Shown here one piece after another: positions 17,560 to 28,090 of a stretch of 64,000 nt of DNA. Location: assembly GCF_003852535.1 (NCBI RefSeq), contig NZ_QAJP01000007.1, forward strand, positions 124,001-188,000. The letters run 5' to 3'. Below the pieces are notes generated by a model, which did not search any database, was not told where the DNA came from, and was given only the letters and a program-made list of their open reading frames with translations. The stretch comes from Herminiimonas sp. KBW02 (lineage in GTDB: Bacteria; Pseudomonadota; Gammaproteobacteria; Burkholderiales; Burkholderiaceae_D). Made by a program: the position numbers and the translations under genes. Numbering within the stretch: position 1 is the first letter of the stretch; each line of letters starts with the position of its first letter.

Positions 17560-19635
17560 TCAGGCAGCCATCCCGCTGTGGCGCAGCAGGGCATCGATAG
17601 TCGGTTCACGTCCGCGGAAAGCCTTAAAGGAATCGATGGCCGGACGCGAGCCGCCCATCGCCAGGATTTCGCGCAGGAAGCGGGCACCGGTATCGCTGGA
17701 CAAGACATTGCCGCTGCTTTTGCTGGCTTCTTCAAATGCGCCATACGCATCGGCCGACAAGACTTCCGCCCATTTGTAGCTATAGTACCCGGCTGCGTAG
17801 CCGCCGGCGAATATATGCGAGAACGAATGCTGGAAGCGATTGAAGGCTGGCGGCGTCATGACAGAGACTTGTGCACGCACTTCATTGAGCACGTCCTGCA
17901 CGGTTTTGCTGCCGTCCGGATTGTAGTCGTAATGCAGGTGCATATCGAATAGCGAGAATTCCACCTGACGCAGGGTTTGCAGGCCGGACTGGAAGTTCTT
18001 GGCCGCGATCATTTTGTCGTACAGTGCGCGCGGCAGGCTGGCACCGGTGTCGGCGTGTGCCGTCATGTGCGACAACACGTCCCATTCCCAGCAGAAGTTT
18101 TCCATGAACTGCGATGGCAGTTCGACTGCATCCCATTCCACGCCGGAGATGCCGGACACGCCCAGCTCTTCAACACGCGTCAACATATGATGCAGGCCGT
18201 GGCCGAATTCGTGGAACAGCGTGATGACTTCATCGTGCGTGAACAGCGACGGCCTGGTCTGGCCATTGACGACGGCAGGCTCGGTGAAGTTGCAGGTGAG
18301 GTAGGCGATAGGCGTCTGTATGCCATCCTTGCCTTCAGCAATGCGACGGCGACCACGTGCATCATCCATCCATGCGCCGCCACGTTTGCCCTGGCGTGCA
18401 TACAGGTCGAGATAGAACTGGCCGACCAGCGCGCCGTCTTTTTCGATGCGGAAGAATTTCACGTCCGGATGCCAGACCGGTGCTGCGTCCGGTTTGATGG
18501 AAACCGAGAACAGGCTTTCGATGGTGCGGAACAAACCGGCCACGACTTGAGGCTCAGGGAAGTATTGCTTCACTTCCTGTTCCGAGAAAGCGTAGCGTTG
18601 TTCACGCAGTTTTTCCGAAGCGTAGGTGACGTCCCAGGCTTCCAGTTGATCGATGCCCAGTTCCTTCTTTGCGAAGCTGCGCAATTCAGCCAGGTCTTTC
18701 TCGGCGAATGGACGTGCGCGTTGAGCCAGGTCTTGCAGGAAGCTGATGACCTGGTCCGGCGTTTGCGCCATTTTGGATACCAGCGAGACTTCGGCGAAGT
18801 TTTTGTAGCCGAGCAGCTTGGCTTCTTCATCGCGCAGTTTCAGGATGTCGACGATGTTTTGCGTATTGTCCCAGGCTGGCTGGCCGCCGAGCTCGGACGC
18901 TTTGGTCGCATTGGCGCGATAAATCGTCGCACGCAGCTCGCGGTTGTCGGCGTACTGCAGCACCGGGAAGTAGGACGGGAAGTGCAGCGTGAATTTATAA
19001 CCCGGCTTCTCGTCCTTCTCGGCAGCGGCACGCGCCGCCTGCTTCGCATCATCCGGCAGGCCGGACAATTCCGCTTCGTTCTCTATATAGAGTGCGTATT
19101 CATTCGTGGCGTCGAGGATGTTTTCTGAAAACTTGGTCGTCAGCGCTGCGTGCTTTTCCTGGATTTCGGCAAAGCGTGGCTTGTCTTCTTCCGCCAGCTC
19201 GGCGCCGCCGAGGCGGAAATCACGTACCGCGTTTTCGATGATCTTCTTGCGTGCAGCCGAGAAGCCCGAGTAATCCGGACCCAGTTGCAGCGCCTTGTAT
19301 TTGGTGAACAGCGTCAGGTTTTGCGCCAGCGCGGTCCAGAATTCAGTGATCTTGGGCTGGTTCTCGTTGTAGGCGGCGCGCAGTTCAGGCGTATCGACGA
19401 CCGAATTCAGGTGACCGACTATGCCCCAGGCCCGGCTGAGTTTTTCCGTGACGTTTTCCAGTGGTTCGACGAAGTTTTCCCAGGTTACCTGGGCGCTCTG
19501 GCCTTCGAGTTCAATGACGACGGTGCGGCACTGGTCGAGCAGGCTATCGATGGCCGAGCCTATGTGCTCGGGTTTGATGGCTTCGAATTGTGGGAGATCG
19601 GAAAAATCCAGCAGCGGGTTCAGGGCAATATTCAT
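17560..19635 (-). CDS. prlC: Oligopeptidase A (M3 metallopeptidase)
   Basis: A 691-residue cytosolic zinc oligopeptidase that degrades short peptides, including cleaved signal peptides. The zinc motif HEFGHGLHH lies in the last third, with the downstream zinc-binding Glu region (GVEWDAVELPSQFMENFCWE). The N-terminus [25 protein letters not shown] is typical of OpdA/PrlC. Its ATG overlaps the folD stop by one base (TGATG), so the two are coupled. Length is as expected (about 680). The alternative names prlC and opdA refer to the same enzyme. Confidence 0.95.
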   Translation of the reverse strand: MNIALNPLLDFSDLPQFEAIKPEHIGSAIDSLLDQCRTVVIELEGQSAQVTWENFVEPLENVTEKLSRAWGIVGHLNSVVDTPELRAAYNENQPKITEFWTALAQNLTLFTKYKALQLGPDYSGFSAARKKIIENAVRDFRLGGAELAEEDKPRFAEIQEKHAALTTKFSENILDATNEYALYIENEAELSGLPDDAKQAARAAAEKDEKPGYKFTLHFPSYFPVLQYADNRELRATIYRANATKASELGGQPAWDNTQNIVDILKLRDEEAKLLGYKNFAEVSLVSKMAQTPDQVISFLQDLAQRARPFAEKDLAELRSFAKKELGIDQLEAWDVTYASEKLREQRYAFSEQEVKQYFPEPQVVAGLFRTIESLFSVSIKPDAAPVWHPDVKFFRIEKDGALVGQFYLDLYARQGKRGGAWMDDARGRRRIAEGKDGIQTPIAYLTCNFTEPAVVNGQTRPSLFTHDEVITLFHEFGHGLHHMLTRVEELGVSGISGVEWDAVELPSQFMENFCWEWDVLSHMTAHADTGASLPRALYDKMIAAKNFQSGLQTLRQVEFSLFDMHLHYDYNPDGSKTVQDVLNEVRAQVSVMTPPAFNRFQHSFSHIFAGGYAAGYYSYKWAEVLSADAYGAFEEASKSSGNVLSSDTGARFLREILAMGGSRPAIDSFKAFRGREPTIDALLRHSGMAA

Positions 19636-20486
19636 CAGTTGGTTTCTCTCTCTGCTGCTTCGATGGTGTTAACCAAAAGCATGGTGATAGTCATGGGGCC
19701 GACGCCGCCTGGCACCGGGGTAATGTAGCTGGCGACTTCCTTGGCGTTAGCGAAGTCGACGTCGCCGCACAGTTTGCCGTTATCGTCGCGGTTGATGCCA
19801 ACGTCGATCACGATGGCGCCCGGTTTGATCATCTCTGCCGTCAGTGTGTTGCGGCGGCCGGTAGCGGCAACGACCACATCAGCCTGACGTGTGTGATAAG
19901 CAAGATCCGCGGTGCCACTATGACAGATGGTGACGGTTGCGTTCGCTTGCAAGAGCAATAATGCCATGGGTTTGCCTACGGTATTGCTGCGACCGATGAC
20001 GACAGCATGCTTGCCAGCCAGTTTGGTGCCGGTGCTTTCGATCAGTTTCATGCAGCCATAAGGGGTACACGGGCGGAAGCCGGGCAGGCCGGTCAACAGC
20101 TCGCCAGCGCTCAATACCGAGTAACCATCGACGTCCTTGCGTGGGGAAATCGCTTCTATCACCTTGTTGGCATCGATATGCTTGGGCAAAGGCATTTGCA
20201 CCAGGATGCCGTGGATCTGCGGATCTGCATTCAGCGCTGCGATGCGCGCCAGCAGCGCCTCCTCGGTCATATCGGCGTCATATTTTTCAAGTAATGAATA
20301 CAGACCGTTGTCTTCGCAAGCCTTGACCTTGTTGCGCACATAGACCTGGGAGGCCGGATCGGCACCGACCAGGATCACGGCCAGGCCCGGTTGCTTGCCC
20401 TTGGCTGTCAGGGCAGCGGCGCGAACGGCGACGTCTTTGCGGAGTTGTTGAGAAAGCAAATTTCCATCAATGATTTGTGCGGTCAT
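19635..20486 (-). CDS. folD: Bifunctional methylene-THF dehydrogenase / methenyl-THF cyclohydrolase
   Basis: A 283-residue FolD. It interconverts 5,10-methylene-, 5,10-methenyl- and 10-formyl-tetrahydrofolate using NADP. Signature stretches: [14 protein letters not shown] (catalytic Lys, about residue 56), [26 protein letters not shown] and [15 protein letters not shown]. It is the first gene of the folD-prlC pair and is divergent from aceE across a 304-bp regulatory region. Length and motifs are normal. Confidence 0.97.
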
Positions 20487-20790: not shown

Positions 20791-23487
20791 ATGTCAGCCC
20801 AGCTCGACCAGATATTGGCGCAAGCCGCCAACGATCCCGATGTAATGGAAACGCAAGAGTGGCTTGATGCCCTCGAAGCGGTTATCGAAAACGAGGGCCC
20901 TGACCGCGCTCACTACCTGGTGGAGCGTCTGATCGATCTGTCCCGCCGTCGTGGCGCGCAAGTTCCGTTCTCCAGCACTACCGCATATGTCAACACCATC
21001 CCTGCTGACCTGGGCGACAACTCGCCGGGCAATCAGGAATACGAAGAGCGCCTGCGTTCATGGATGCGCTGGAATGCGATGGCGATGGTCGTCAAAGCCA
21101 ACCGCGTTGATGGCGACCTGGGTGGTCATATTTCCAGCTTCGCATCGCTCGCGAACATGCTGGGTACCGGTTTTAATCACTTCTGGCACGCACCGACCGA
21201 AGATCACGGTGGCGATCTGTTGTACATCCAGGGTCACTCGTCGCCTGGCGTTTATGCTCGCGCTTTCCTCGAAGGCCGCCTGAGCGAAGAACAATTGATC
21301 AACTTCCGTCGTGAAGTTGATGGCAAAGGCCTGTCTTCCTATCCGCATCCGAAGCTGATGCCGGACTTCTGGCAATTCCCTACCGTATCAATGGGCCTGG
21401 GCCCATTGATGGCGATTTATCAGGCGCGCTTCCTGAAGTATCTGCAAGCACGCGACATCGCAAAAACCGACAACCGTAAAGTCTGGGTATTCTGCGGCGA
21501 CGGCGAGATGGATGAAGTCGAATCGATGGGCGCTATCGGTGTAGCCGGTCGCGAACAACTCGACAACCTGGTCATGGTCGTCAACTGTAACCTGCAGCGT
21601 CTGGACGGCCCGGTACGCGGCAACGGCAAAATCATCCAGGAACTCGAAGGCGAATTCCGCGGTGCCGGCTGGAACGTCATCAAGATCATCTGGGGTTCCA
21701 ACTGGGACCCACTGCTGGCCAAAGACAAAGAAGGCATTCTGCAGCGCGTCATGATGGAAACGCTGGACGGCGAATACCAGAACTACAAAGCCAAGGATGG
21801 CGCTTACGTGCGCAAACACTTCTTCGGCAAGCATCCAAAATTGCTGGAAATGGTTTCGCGCATGTCGGACGACGACATCTGGCACCTGCTGCGCGGCGGT
21901 CATGATCCACACAAGGTCTACGCTGGCTTCAAGCAAGCGCAGGAACACAAAGGCCAACCTACCGTTCTGCTGGTCAAAACCGTCAAAGGTTATGGCATGG
22001 GCAAATCAGGTGAAGCGCGCAACACTGCGCATCAAACCAAAAAACTGGACGACGAAGCAGTCCGCGAAATGCGCGATCGTTTCAATCTGCCTATCGCTGA
22101 CGAACATCTGGCCGACATTCCATTCTTCAAACCGGCTGATGATGCGCCAGAGATGAAGTACCTGCACGAACGCCGTGCGGCACTGGGTGGCTACCTGCCA
22201 CAACGTCGTCAACAAGCGGACGAGAAGTTGCCGGTTCCTGAACTGGCTGCATTCAAGGCCGTGCTGGATGCGACTGCGGAAGGCCGTGAAATCTCGACCA
22301 CGCAAGCATACGTGCGCATCATTTCCATCCTGCTGCGCGATGCGAACCTGGGTCAACGCCTGGTACCTATCCTGGTGGATGAATCCCGTACCTTCGGTAT
22401 GGAAGGCTTGTTCCGTCAAATCGGTATTTACAACCGTGAAGGCCAGTTATACGAGCCAGTCGATAAAGACCAGGTCAGCTTCTACCGTGAAGACAAAGCC
22501 GGTCAGATCCTGCAGGAAGGTATTAACGAAGCAGGCGCGATGGCGTCGTGGATTGCTGCGGCGACCTCGTACTCGACCAACAACCGCATCATGGTGCCGT
22601 TCTACACCTTCTACTCGATGTTCGGTCTGCAACGTATCGGCGACCTGGCATGGGCAGCGGGCGACATGCGCGCACGCGGCTTCCTGCTCGGCGGTACCGC
22701 TGGTCGTACCACACTGAACGGTGAAGGCTTGCAACACGAAGACGGTCACAGCCACATCCTGGCGTCGACCATCCCGAACTGTATTCCTTACGATCCGACC
22801 TTCGCACACGAAGTCGCAGTCATCATGCATGACGGCCTGAAGCGCATGATCGAAAACCAGGAAGATGTGTTCTATTACATCACCCTGATGAACGAAAACT
22901 ATGCACAACCAGGCCTGAAACCAGGTCAGGAAGAGGGCATCCTCAAAGGTCTGTACCTGTTGCAGGAAGGCGCGAAAAAAGCGAAGAACCGCGTACAACT
23001 GATGGGCTCCGGCACCATCCTGCGCGAAGTTATCGCTGCTGCTGATTTGCTGAAAGACGACTGGGGTGTTACCGCCGATGTCTGGTCTGCTCCATCGTTC
23101 ACACTGCTGGCGCGCGATGGCCAGGACGTAGAGCGCTGGAACATGCTGCACCCGACCGACAAACCGCGTCAGGCGCACATCACTTCGTCGCTGCAAGACA
23201 CCGCTGGTCCTATCGTGGTTGCAACCGATTACATGCGCACCTTCGCAGAACAGGTTCGTGCGTTCGTACCGAAAGATCGTACCTACAAAGTGCTCGGTAC
23301 CGATGGCTTTGGCCGTTCCGACAGCCGCGCAAAACTGCGTGAGTTCTTCGAGGTCAACCGCTATTTCGTCACGGTTGCGGCGCTCAAGGCATTGGCAGAT
23401 GAAGGTGCGATTGCTACTTCCGTGGTTGCAGATGCGATCAAGAAGTACGGCATCAATCCAGAAAAAGTTAATCCGGTAACGCTGTAA
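20791..23487 (+). CDS. aceE: Pyruvate dehydrogenase E1 component (homodimeric type)
   Basis: An 898-residue thiamine-diphosphate enzyme that decarboxylates pyruvate and acetylates the lipoyl groups of E2. Motifs: the ThDP/Mg motif from GDGEMDE to NCNLQRLDGPVRGN (about residues 235-275), HGHSSPGVYARAFLEGRL early on, and ETLDGEYQ. Length agrees with the proteobacterial homodimeric E1 (about 890-900). The ATG follows CAGGAGACAAATT. It heads the operon aceE-aceF-bph-lpdA. Confidence 0.98.
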   Translation: MSAQLDQILAQAANDPDVMETQEWLDALEAVIENEGPDRAHYLVERLIDLSRRRGAQVPFSSTTAYVNTIPADLGDNSPGNQEYEERLRSWMRWNAMAMVVKANRVDGDLGGHISSFASLANMLGTGFNHFWHAPTEDHGGDLLYIQGHSSPGVYARAFLEGRLSEEQLINFRREVDGKGLSSYPHPKLMPDFWQFPTVSMGLGPLMAIYQARFLKYLQARDIAKTDNRKVWVFCGDGEMDEVESMGAIGVAGREQLDNLVMVVNCNLQRLDGPVRGNGKIIQELEGEFRGAGWNVIKIIWGSNWDPLLAKDKEGILQRVMMETLDGEYQNYKAKDGAYVRKHFFGKHPKLLEMVSRMSDDDIWHLLRGGHDPHKVYAGFKQAQEHKGQPTVLLVKTVKGYGMGKSGEARNTAHQTKKLDDEAVREMRDRFNLPIADEHLADIPFFKPADDAPEMKYLHERRAALGGYLPQRRQQADEKLPVPELAAFKAVLDATAEGREISTTQAYVRIISILLRDANLGQRLVPILVDESRTFGMEGLFRQIGIYNREGQLYEPVDKDQVSFYREDKAGQILQEGINEAGAMASWIAAATSYSTNNRIMVPFYTFYSMFGLQRIGDLAWAAGDMRARGFLLGGTAGRTTLNGEGLQHEDGHSHILASTIPNCIPYDPTFAHEVAVIMHDGLKRMIENQEDVFYYITLMNENYAQPGLKPGQEEGILKGLYLLQEGAKKAKNRVQLMGSGTILREVIAAADLLKDDWGVTADVWSAPSFTLLARDGQDVERWNMLHPTDKPRQAHITSSLQDTAGPIVVATDYMRTFAEQVRAFVPKDRTYKVLGTDGFGRSDSRAKLREFFEVNRYFVTVAALKALADEGAIATSVVADAIKKYGINPEKVNPVTL

Positions 23488-23598: not shown

Positions 23599-24972
23599 AT
23601 GAGCATGGTCGAAGTCAAAGTCCCGGATATCGGCGACTTCAAGGAAGTCGAAGTCATTGAACTGCTGGTCAAGGCGGGCGATACGATCAAGGTCGATCAG
23701 TCCCTGATCACGGTTGAGTCCGACAAAGCCAGTATGGAAATTCCATCCAGCCACGCTGGCGTAGTCAAAGAAGTCAAAGTCAAACTCGGTGACAAGATCG
23801 CGGAAGGCGCGCTGGTCTTGTTGCTGGAAGAATCCGGCGCTGCAGCTGCGCCGGCACCGGCAGCAGAACCGGCGAAAGCCGAAGCACCTGCAGCTGCTGC
23901 TCCGGTAGCGGCTCCTGTACCGGCTCCTGTACCGGCTCCGGCTCCGGTCGCCGCACCTGCGCCTGCGCCAGAACCTGTTGCAGCTCCGGCACCAGCGCCA
24001 GCAGCACCTGTTGCGGCCGCGCCTGCCACTGCTGCCAACAGCAAGGCACATGCATCACCATCGATACGCAAGTTCGCACGCGAACTCGGCGTGGATCTCG
24101 GCAAGGTTGCCGGTTCCGGTCCGAAAGGGCGTATCACGCAGGAAGACGTACAGAACTATGTGAAGGGCGTGATCGCTGCCGGTCCGGTTACGGCTGCCGC
24201 TGCTGCACCAGTAAAAGCTGGCGGCGGTGCAGGTCTGGATCTGCTGCCATGGCCATCGCTGGACTTCAGCAAGTTTGGTACCACGACCTTGCAACCATTG
24301 TCGCGCATCAAGAAAATCAGCGGCCCGAATCTGCATCGCAACTGGGTCATGATTCCGCACGTCACGCAATACGACGAAGCCGACGTCACCGAACTGGAAG
24401 AACTGCGCAAATCGAGCAATACCGCATTGGCTAAATCCGGCGTCAAACTGACGATGCTGGCATTTGTCATCAAGGCTTGCGTTGCCGCGCTGAAGAAATA
24501 CCCTGAGTTCAATTCCTCGCTCGACGCAGCGGGTGAAAACCTGATTCTCAAGCAGTACTACAACATCGGCTTCGCTGCCGATACGCCGCAAGGTCTGGTG
24601 GTTCCTGTCGTCAAGGGCGTGGATCAAAAATCAGTTACGCAAATCGCACAGGAAATGGGCGAGTTGTCGGCACAGGCGCGCGAAGGCAAGCTGAAACCTG
24701 CAGACATGCAAGGCGCGACCTTCACGATCTCGTCGTTGGGCGGCATCGGTGGTACTTACTTCACACCGCTGATTAATGCACCGGAAGTTGCGATCATCGG
24801 CTTGTCGAAAACTTCGATGAAACCAGTCTGGGACGGCAAGCAATTCGTACCGCGTCTGATCATGCCATTGTCGCTGTCCTACGATCACCGCGTGATCGAC
24901 GGCGCGCAGGGTGCACGCTTCGTGACTTACCTGAGCGAAGTACTGAACGATCTGCGCAAGTCCCTGCTGTAA
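23599..24972 (+). CDS. aceF: Pyruvate dehydrogenase E2, dihydrolipoyl acetyltransferase
   Basis: A 457-residue E2 core protein that transfers the acetyl group from lipoamide to CoA. One N-terminal lipoyl domain (residues 3-76, lipoyl Lys43 in ESDKASME), a long Ala/Pro linker (about 82-150) made of repeated AP and APAPVP units, a peripheral-subunit-binding domain (about 152-190, SPSIRKFARELGVDLGKVAGSG), and the catalytic domain with His430 and Asp434 in SYDHRVIDG. There is only one lipoyl domain, against three in E. coli, but lpdA downstream carries another that is almost identical. The start is preceded by AAGCGGAGA. Confidence 0.97.
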   Translation: MSMVEVKVPDIGDFKEVEVIELLVKAGDTIKVDQSLITVESDKASMEIPSSHAGVVKEVKVKLGDKIAEGALVLLLEESGAAAAPAPAAEPAKAEAPAAAAPVAAPVPAPVPAPAPVAAPAPAPEPVAAPAPAPAAPVAAAPATAANSKAHASPSIRKFARELGVDLGKVAGSGPKGRITQEDVQNYVKGVIAAGPVTAAAAAPVKAGGGAGLDLLPWPSLDFSKFGTTTLQPLSRIKKISGPNLHRNWVMIPHVTQYDEADVTELEELRKSSNTALAKSGVKLTMLAFVIKACVAALKKYPEFNSSLDAAGENLILKQYYNIGFAADTPQGLVVPVVKGVDQKSVTQIAQEMGELSAQAREGKLKPADMQGATFTISSLGGIGGTYFTPLINAPEVAIIGLSKTSMKPVWDGKQFVPRLIMPLSLSYDHRVIDGAQGARFVTYLSEVLNDLRKSLL

Positions 24973-24988: not shown

Positions 24989-25558
24989 ATGACTACCTGC
25001 GTCGTCGTCAAAAAAAACCGGGAAATCGCGATTGCCTGCGATTCCCTGGTGACCTTTGGCGACACGCGTTTGTCGCATGCGTACGAAGAGAACAACAAGA
25101 TGTTTCAGATCGGCGCGTCCTACGTCACGCTGGCAGGTACCGCAGCGCACTTCCCGGTCATGCGTAAGCTGCTGACAGGCATGGGCGAAGACTGCAAGCT
25201 GAACAGCCGCGATGAAGTATTCGATACGTTCACCAAAGCGCACCAGATTCTGAAGGATCAATACTTCCTCAACACCAAGGAAGAGGAAGACGATCCCTAC
25301 GAGTCCTCGCAAATTGCGACGCTGGTAGCCAATCCTTACGGCATCTTCGGTATTTATTCGTATCGTGAAGTATTCAGTTTTGATCGCTTCTGGGGCATAG
25401 GCAGCGGTCGCAATTTCGCACTCGGTGCGATGTATGCAGCGTATGACGGCCCGGCCACTGCACGCGAAATTGCAGAAATCGGCGTGCATGCAGGTGCCGA
25501 GTTCGACAAGAGTACGGCAGGACCGTTTCAGATCCTCAGCTTTCCCATGCAGGGATAA
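24989..25558 (+). CDS. Proteasome-like Ntn hydrolase (betaproteobacterial proteasome homologue type)
   Basis: A 189-residue protein of the proteasome beta/HslV fold. After Met removal Thr2 would be the N-terminal nucleophile (TTCVVVKKNREIAIACDS, compare HslV TTIVSVRRNGQVVIGGDG). Asp18 falls at proteasome position 17, Lys37 in NKMFQIG fits the catalytic Lys, and Ser139 (GSGRNFALGAMYAA) and Asp173/Thr176 fit the remaining catalytic residues. No propeptide is present. It is shorter than Anbu and differs from HslV; from memory it best fits the BPH group of betaproteobacteria. No HslU or other unfoldase is adjacent. It lies 16 bases after aceF and 83 before lpdA, so it is co-transcribed with pyruvate dehydrogenase. 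The substrate is unknown. Confidence 0.75.
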   Translation: MTTCVVVKKNREIAIACDSLVTFGDTRLSHAYEENNKMFQIGASYVTLAGTAAHFPVMRKLLTGMGEDCKLNSRDEVFDTFTKAHQILKDQYFLNTKEEEDDPYESSQIATLVANPYGIFGIYSYREVFSFDRFWGIGSGRNFALGAMYAAYDGPATAREIAEIGVHAGAEFDKSTAGPFQILSFPMQG

Positions 25559-25641: not shown

Positions 25642-27423
25642 ATGAGCATGATTGAAGTGAAAGTCCCCGATATCGGCGATTTCAAGGAAGTTGAAATTAT
25701 TGAATTGCTGGTCAATGTGGGCGATACGATCAAGATCGATCAATCGCTGATCACGGTTGAGTCCGATAAAGCCAGCATGGAAATTCCATCCAGCCATGCA
25801 GGCGTCATCAAGGAATTGAAAGTCAAACTGGGCGACAAGGTTGCAGAAGGTTCCTTGCTGCTGGTACTCGAAGTAGCGGCGGATGTGGCTGCGCCTGTGG
25901 CCGCTCCGGCTGCTGCACCAGCGCCGGTTCAGGCCGCGGCACCTGCAGCAGCTCCGGCACCTACACCGGCACCAGCGGCTGCCAGCTTCGGCGGCAGTGC
26001 AGATATCGAATGCGACATGATGGTCCTCGGCGCAGGCCCTGGCGGTTACTCTGCTGCATTCCGTTCTGCCGATCTGGGTATGTCTACCGTGCTGGTTGAG
26101 CGTTACTCGACACTGGGCGGTGTCTGCCTCAACGTTGGTTGCATCCCGTCCAAAGCCTTGTTGCACGTCGCAGCAGTCATCGATGAAACAGCATCGATGG
26201 CGGCGCACGGTGTCACTTTCGGCAAACCGCAGATCGATATCGACAAACTGCGCGGCTACAAAGAACAAGTCATCGGCAAAATGACTACCGGTCTGGCCGG
26301 TATGGCGAAAGCACGCAAAGTCAATGTCGTGCAAGGCGTAGGCCAGTTCGTCGGTCCACACCATATCGAAGTGACTGCAGCTGACGGCAGCAAAAAAACC
26401 ATCCAGTTCAAGCAAGCGATCATCGCTGCCGGCTCTTCGGTCGTGAACCTGCCGTTCGTACCGCAGGATCCACGCATCGTAGACTCGACTGGCGCGCTCG
26501 AACTGCGCAGCGTACCTAAACGCATGCTGGTCATCGGCGGCGGCATCATCGGCCTGGAAATGGCAACTGTCTACTCCACATTGGGTGCACGCATAGACGT
26601 GGTCGAAATGATGGACGGCCTGATGCAAGGTGCGGACCGCGACATGGTCAAGGTCTGGCAAAAATTCAACGAGAAGCGCTTCGACAAAATCATGTTGAAG
26701 ACCAAAACCGTTGCCGTCGAAGCGTTGAAAGAAGGCATCAAAGTTTCGTTTGAAGCAGCCGAAGCAGGCGTGACCGCACCAGAACCGCAGCTCTACGACA
26801 TGGTGCTGGTCGCAGTAGGCCGCAGCCCGAACGGCAAGAAAATCGCCGCCGACAAGGCCGGCGTTGCAGTGACGGATCGCGGCTTCATCGAAGTCGATGC
26901 GCAAATGCGTACCAATGTGCCGCACATCTTTGCAATCGGCGATCTGGTTGGCCAACCTATGCTGGCACACAAAGCAGTGCACGAAGCACACGTTGCCGCT
27001 GAAGCGGCCGCTGGTGAAAAAGCCTACTTCGACGCCCGCGTCATTCCTTCGGTGGCCTACACCGATCCGGAAGTGGCATGGGTCGGCATCACCGAAGACG
27101 AAGCCAAGGCCAAAGGCATCAAGCTGGAAAAAGGTCACTTCCCTTGGGCAGCATCGGGTCGTGCGGTTGCTAACGGTCGTGACGAAGGCTTCACCAAGCT
27201 GTTGTTCGATGCTGAAACCCATCGCATCGTCGGTGGCGGCATCGTCGGTACCCACGCTGGCGACATGATCGGTGAAATCGCGCTGGCCATCGAAATGGGT
27301 GCAGATGCAGTTGATATCGGCAAAACCATCCACCCACATCCAACCCTGGGTGAGTCGATCGGTATGGCGGCGGAAGTGTATAAAGGTGTTTGTACCGACC
27401 TGCCACCGGCACGCAAGAAATAA
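25642..27423 (+). CDS. lpdA: Dihydrolipoyl dehydrogenase (E3) with N-terminal lipoyl domain
   Basis: A 593-residue flavoprotein that reoxidises dihydrolipoamide with NAD. Residues 3-76 are a lipoyl domain (Lys43) nearly identical to that of the aceF product, joined by an Ala/Pro linker (about 80-115) to a standard E3: FAD motif [11 protein letters not shown] (130-140), redox disulphide Cys162/Cys167 in [12 protein letters not shown] fold [10 protein letters not shown], and the C-terminal His566-Glu571 pair in HPHPTLGES. Lipoyl-bearing E3 enzymes are known in betaproteobacteria. The start is preceded by ACGGAGCTAAAGCG. It ends the operon at a terminator. Confidence 0.97.
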
Positions 27424-27541: not shown

Positions 27542-28090
27542 GTGAACGTATCAAATGAACAGAACAATGCAGCAGGACAGATAGTCGATCTGCTGGCCGC
27601 ACGCCTCGGTAAAAATCGCGCGATCCATCCGGAAACAGTGATCGCAGTCGCTGCCCGTTTATCCGGCAGTCTGCTCCTGCGCTCATTTAATTTTGATCTG
27701 GCCAAGCTGGAGCCGGGCGCTATCGTGCTGTCGGCAGAGGCCAATGAGCAAGGCCCTGAATTATTAGGTCTCCTATCTTCTGCGTTGAGCAGCAGAGGCA
27801 TCCTTCTGGATAAGGAAAAGCTGGGTGGCGATCAGTCCTTGCGGGGCGAAGAGCCGCATCTTTCTTTTGCAGAGTCTCTCGTGTTGACGCAAGACGACGC
27901 GCTGCAGATCGCGCAAGAAAACAAGTTGTCGCTGGAGCAGGCGGCACAGGCTGCGACCTTGGCAGCTGCTTTTATCGTTGCGGAGTGCAGTGGAGCGATA
28001 GGTGCCGAGACGGCGTTGAATGTCGCAGTCTATGGTTTGATAGAAGGGACAAAGACAGTACCGCCACGTCTGGAGCAGGCAGCTACCTGA
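27542..28090 (+). CDS. Uncharacterised 182-residue protein
   Basis: I do not recognise this protein. The start is a GTG with CAGGAG five bases upstream; the surrounding text ACATCAGGAGCA is repeated in tandem at 27511-27522 and 27528-27538, giving two possible ribosome-binding sites. No signal peptide or membrane segment is visible. The sequence is Ala/Leu-rich and largely helical (for example QAAQAATLAAAFIVAE, residues 137-152), with several LLS and SALSS patches. It follows the pdh terminator and is convergent with a DUF3297 gene. Codon use is like its neighbours, so it is probably a genuine gene. Confidence 0.6.
   Translation: MNVSNEQNNAAGQIVDLLAARLGKNRAIHPETVIAVAARLSGSLLLRSFNFDLAKLEPGAIVLSAEANEQGPELLGLLSSALSSRGILLDKEKLGGDQSLRGEEPHLSFAESLVLTQDDALQIAQENKLSLEQAAQAATLAAAFIVAECSGAIGAETALNVAVYGLIEGTKTVPPRLEQAAT

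Follow-up and report, generated by a model that had tools for sequence, protein, structure and literature searches.

The window (the whole 64,000-nucleotide stretch of Herminiimonas sp. KBW02 DNA analysed) carries a pyruvate dehydrogenase (PDH) operon with a complete open reading frame in the gap between aceF and lpdA. The genes and features at the locus were:

20791..23487, + strand: aceE, pyruvate dehydrogenase E1, homodimeric type (Pfam and NCBIfam)
23599..24972, + strand: aceF, pyruvate dehydrogenase E2 with one lipoyl domain, E3-binding domain and acyltransferase (Pfam and NCBIfam)
24989..25558, + strand: bph, betaproteobacterial proteasome homologue (BPH), 189 aa, ATG start (ORF, PDB and Pfam matches, residue alignment, AlphaFold fold)
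25268..25312, + strand: acidic pore loop of bph, codons of residues 94-108, LNTKEEEDDPYESSQ
25642..27423, + strand: lpdA, dihydrolipoyl dehydrogenase E3 with an N-terminal lipoyl domain (Pfam and NCBIfam)

The 189-aa frame, its spacing of 16 bp from the aceF stop (24972) and 83 bp to the lpdA start (25642), and the residues Thr2, Asp18, Lys37, Ser139 and Asp173 in its translation were all found as the original prediction had described them. Gly50 is present as well. The Thr directly follows the Met and a propeptide is absent. The operon has no ATPase gene among the window neighbours checked, in line with the predicted lack of an ATPase partner. aceE, aceF and lpdA each scored above the cut-off of a curated NCBIfam model, and residues 94-108 were assigned as the pore loop by their correspondence to the loop of the Cupriavidus metallidurans BPH (Cm-BPH) in Fuchs et al. 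(2017; PMC5777263, drawn on here in part). Promoter and terminator scans of the aceF-bph-lpdA region gave counts close to those of shuffled sequences (5 against 4.6 on average, and 8 against 7.8), and the sole plus-strand site from the aceE start to the lpdA end was a terminator-like site inside aceF. Directly 3' of lpdA lies a 182-aa ORF (27542-28090, + strand), unmatched in Pfam and NCBIfam at the thresholds applied, which among 79 loci was seen in Herminiimonas contaminans only. Upstream of aceE, on the opposite strand (17560-20486), an oligopeptidase A-like gene, which stays under its model's curated cut-off, and folD form a divergent arrangement common to many relatives.

The assignment to BPH was borne out by sequence and by fold. 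The closest solved structures in a phmmer search were the BPHs of C. metallidurans (5ovu; E 1.1e-82) and Thiobacillus denitrificans (5ovs; E 2.3e-35), with HslV next at 0.024, and the protein matched PF00227 at 8.6e-7, above the Pfam cut-off. An AlphaFold model of the monomer, built with 30 sequences in the alignment, had a mean pLDDT of 86.4 and a pTM of 0.86 and was least confident in blocks 21-30 and 91-110, of which the second contains the pore loop. The predicted Ntn-hydrolase fold was likewise recovered, the first six fold matches of the model being chains of the two solved BPHs (TM-score 0.91 to 5ovs_A) followed by HslV. Judged from sequence and predicted structure, the window gene is thus a BPH, nearer to the solved BPHs than to HslV, Anbu or the proteasome, and its sequence matches are beyond chance. 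Cm-BPH (5ovu) has 66% identity to it in the fold alignment and shares its active-site residues, acidic pore loop, lack of a propeptide and PDH operon; the two differ only in species, with no functional difference seen. The T. denitrificans protein (Td-BPH; 5ovs, 5ovt) is alike in fold, active-site residues and acidic loop but has only 36% identity, and its gene lies in an argG operon.

Two other members of the proteasome-like family (PF00227) were rejected as identities for the window gene. HslV shares the proteasome beta fold and the Thr1/Asp/Lys chemistry with BPH (TM-scores of 0.60-0.73, normalised by query length, among the HslV matches listed) but works with HslU. The two HslV models scored 22.7 and 22.3 bits, far under their cut-offs (137 and 157.75), hslU does not adjoin bph, and a separate hslV-hslU pair lies elsewhere in the same genome. 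No Anbu chain was found among the seven phmmer structure matches, and Anbu is encoded by a gene of its own in this genome. The genome (G000) therefore encodes three proteasome-family proteins, HslV with HslU (L080), Anbu (L082) and the BPH of the window; the Anbu gene, whose best Anbu match was 4.1e-91, adjoins transglutaminase-like and Alpha-E genes.

The position of bph had been put forward as a striking feature, but it was already published for C. metallidurans, where the gene for Cm-BPH (Rmet_1198) sits in the PDH operon (Fuchs et al., 2017; PMC5777263). The passages of that paper drawn on here place BPH in three kinds of operon (argininosuccinate synthase, pyruvate dehydrogenase and Hsp33), credit these settings to Valas and Bourne (2008), and name arginine genes alone for the first of these. 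Beyond the work of Fuchs et al., no other report on BPH, or on a proteasome homologue together with PDH, was identified among the open-access matches examined (PMC6213913 and PMC8138137 not included). The protein and its place in the operon are known, and what is new here is the evolutionary history of bph.

The same passages (PMC5777263) describe solved structures of Cm-BPH and Td-BPH as stacked seven-membered double rings with active sites facing an inner cavity, both proteins being tetradecameric in solution. Met removal exposing Thr1 was demonstrated for Cm-BPH, and the N-terminal Thr of both proteins was modified by epoxomicin and that of Cm-BPH by MG132 as well; as there described, neither protein cleaved any of the peptides tried or casein, and SDS was without effect. 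No interacting unfoldase is known for BPH according to the part of Fuchs et al. (2021; PMC8665760) used here, which also describes the family member connectase as a specific protein ligase, a monomer without the first two helices. A reactive nucleophile that fails to proteolyse many substrates, in a family that includes connectase, could be that of an N-terminal-nucleophile enzyme other than a protease, such as a specific ligase or an amidohydrolase. We regard this as quite unlikely, since the active sites of BPHs lie inside closed double rings and, in the published structures, peptide-like proteasome inhibitors bound in a manner consistent with productive binding (PMC5777263), while the helices that connectase lacks (PMC8665760) are presumably those predicted in our model at residues 54-64 and 74-92.

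The active site was compared across 155 BPH rows, each starting at query residue 1 and at least 165 aa long (five of 160 rows were dropped, four with an incomplete start and one duplicate of the window). The window residue was kept at Thr2 in 148, Asp18 in 153, Lys37 in 155, Gly50 in 155, Ser139 in 150 and Asp173 in 153. The nucleophile was Thr in all 83 PDH-setting rows; Ser replaced it in seven of the 155, none in the PDH setting, three of these coming from the window's own order (L096, L121, L130) and four from other origins (L071, L074, L075, L077). Net acidity of the loop (residues 94-107) averaged 4.92 in the 83 PDH-setting rows and 4.7-5.8 across the four main classes, single rows of the class 'other' going down to 0. 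With a PDH-specific residue defined as one present in at least 95% of PDH rows and in fewer than 30% of 44 other Thr-type rows (the hslO and 'other' classes), the only such residue was Tyr125 (81 of 83 rows). Because Tyr125 alone separates the PDH rows, there is no case for a retooling of BPH in this setting.

A PDH setting was defined as the catalytic part of aceF or lpdA no more than 1500 bp away on the same strand. A scan of genome contigs placed 72 of 79 loci in this setting, a share that over-represents the PDH clade because the scan finds close relatives; the best locus for bph in the genome collection was that of H. contaminans, with 99% identity over the protein. Across the order of the window host, a BPH match was found in 152 of 399 genomes, the window's own included, and 79 loci were hand-picked from 78 of the other 151, mostly one per genus. 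In this survey 26 loci lay beside hslO, 22 beside argG, 14 in a PDH setting and 17 elsewhere, although some of the last may be cut contexts as a few loci are at contig ends (e.g., L100, L141, L145). The surveys overlap (L084 and L028 are one record, as are L154 and L062), so that the total of 87 PDH loci, including the window, counts at least two of them twice.

The gene order is conserved in relatives, and this check did not refute the original prediction. Among 83 PDH rows whose bph start is complete, 81 had a measured aceF upstream and 81 a measured lpdA downstream; aceF and bph overlapped by 4 bp in 8 of the 81 measured cases, and the bph-lpdA gap was 20 bp at the median (range -10 to 192). 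The overlaps and short gaps are as one operon would show them. The number of lipoyl domains varied among the loci, with two in lpdA in L002-L005, L007-L009 and L012 and two in aceF instead in L010, L013, L015 and L079.

Outside the PDH setting, Pfam identified representatives of the neighbouring genes as HSP33, argininosuccinate synthase, ornithine carbamoyltransferase, DUF520, CinA and a class-III aminotransferase, the last taken as argD. DUF520 is the domain of a gene that we take to be yajQ, and it came after bph, in the same orientation, in 21 of 22 loci of the argG type (within L083-L161, e.g., L095, L099, L101). A further neighbour matched the Hsp15 NCBIfam model (4.9e-32) with 110.8 bits against a curated cut-off of 148 and is named only hslR-like for that reason; seven tree rows labelled 'other' lie within 1500 bp of it. 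No AAA+ gene was found among the 10 identified recurrent neighbour clusters of bph outside the PDH setting.

A tree was built from 137 BPH rows and the genome's own HslV, leaving out 18 of the 155 rows, all of PDH setting and mostly Pandoraea (L033, L034, L036-L044, L046-L050, L052, L053). The 65 PDH-setting rows formed one branch (support 99/97) nested among rows of other settings, and the PDH setting required a single change, in 98% of 200 bootstrap trees. Neither a midpoint root nor the long HslV branch fixed the oldest setting. As the sequences place it, the PDH setting of bph arose once, by what would be an ancestral entry of the gene into the aceF-lpdA gap, and within the PDH clade it was retained in every tree row that keeps bph. 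This suggests that BPH operon neighbourhoods are a few old relocations passed on by descent, in which case the PDH neighbourhood is one event and weak evidence on function.

bph is far from universal. Within the host family, 48 of 116 genomes had a BPH match, two of them split. Of the 68 family genomes lacking a BPH match, 14 were searched for aceF, along with four bph-bearing genomes (two intact, two split). In 12 of the 14, lpdA came after aceF at a distance of 13-177 bp between the aligned ends, with bph missing; G400 and G403 had no clear aceF-lpdA pair. On an E2 tree of 71 rows, whose 57 bph-bearing rows were hand-chosen, the absent label required eight changes, at least five of them forced by well-supported branches. 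Absence was only loosely clustered, as 2 of 500 label shuffles needed as few changes. Since the BPH tree gives the PDH setting one origin only, we read the changes as losses. Their number is approximate, as the tree is one of E2 and not of species, and changes may be gains, losses or operon transfer. The clearest case is G416, a 100% complete genome of the same genus that is sister to the window and H. contaminans and lacks bph; its aceF end and lpdA leader align closely with those of the window and the bph stretch is absent. bph therefore appears to have been lost repeatedly, including from a same-genus genome with aceF-lpdA kept. In the two split cases (L175 in G488, L176 in G474) bph runs across two frames in the aceF-lpdA gap, likely as a copy in decay; the G488 genome is small (about 1.7 Mb), and in G474, fragmented and 68% complete, the split is possibly an assembly error. 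In a comparison made to look for a trade-off between BPH and HslV, 114 of the 116 family genomes matched PF00227, almost always with a best score like that of the window genome's own HslV; PF00227 is too weak for counts of BPH and Anbu co-occurrence. In G434 bph was present and the only PF00227 match was 6.2e-6, so HslV may be absent there.

Where it is kept, bph is under strong purifying selection by its codon substitutions. Its dN/dS against the window (NG86) was 0.028 for L001, 0.069 for L002, 0.049 for L003, 0.073 for L005, 0.078 for L007 and 0.084 for L011, rough values as the dS of bph exceeded 1 for four of the six relatives, and was lower than that of aceF (0.033-0.163) for all six. 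Values in this range indicate a gene doing something in the genomes that keep it. That bph might be a functionless passenger of the operon, as its scattered absence and the two split frames could suggest, is very improbable given this selection and the conservation of all six active-site positions, each in at least 148 of the 155 rows.

Taking the roughly 66% identity to Cm-BPH and the conserved residues together, Met removal in the window BPH would expose Thr1, which, aided by Lys36 and Asp17, would attack peptide bonds. The long, acidic loop at the pore may serve in place of an ATPase gate and would admit only chains that are small or unfolded. bph is predicted to be co-expressed with PDH, probably as part of one operon. 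We think it fairly probable that an ordinary, intact BPH entered the gap once and has a general, dispensable role that is not PDH-specific; this role would most likely be the disposal of peptides or damaged proteins, common to all BPH clades. Cleavage and the general role are what we infer, since Cm-BPH and Td-BPH were inert on peptides and casein as published (PMC5777263).

The original prediction had offered trimming or turnover of PDH subunits or lipoyl domains as a function, and the PDH-clade BPH could accordingly be a peptidase dedicated to quality control or processing of the complex, with damaged subunits or the Ala/Pro-rich linkers that join lipoyl domains as its targets. A single entry of the gene into the operon, its retention in all 65 PDH tree rows, the conserved flanking by aceF and lpdA with occasional overlap, and the strong purifying selection would all fit. 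However, in the published account, pull-downs with tagged BPH from mid-log C. metallidurans extract, with or without crosslinker, yielded no PDH subunits and no HslU (PMC5777263), most of the examined BPH-less genomes retain adjacent aceF and lpdA, only one residue is specific to the clade, and other BPH clades, in which nearly the same residues occur, lie beside hslO, hslR-like or argG genes. The trimming role is thus unsupported, and we consider a dedicated peptidase unlikely. As several close relatives lack bph, its product is probably an optional, accessory peptidase rather than a dedicated PDH part.

A general accessory peptidase, the gene for which would once have come to lie in a well-expressed operon, fits better, as bph is selected, is absent in relatives that keep the operon and is near-unchanged between settings, and the negative pull-down (PMC5777263) points the same way. 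Two observations count against the general role. Incubation with BPH left the carbonylation patterns of extracts unchanged and Cm-BPH was unable to replace missing proteases in E. coli, in the passages of PMC5777263 drawn on here, which speaks against general stress disposal; and a setting kept wherever the PDH clade keeps bph is also expected under a specific link. It is conceivable, but decidedly unlikely, that BPH became a PDH-coupled peptidase acting only on a rare damaged or mis-lipoylated form of E2 or E3, too transient for mid-log pull-downs, and was shed where such damage is handled otherwise. The close pair of the window genome and G416, with and without bph in an otherwise similar operon, would offer an easy comparison.
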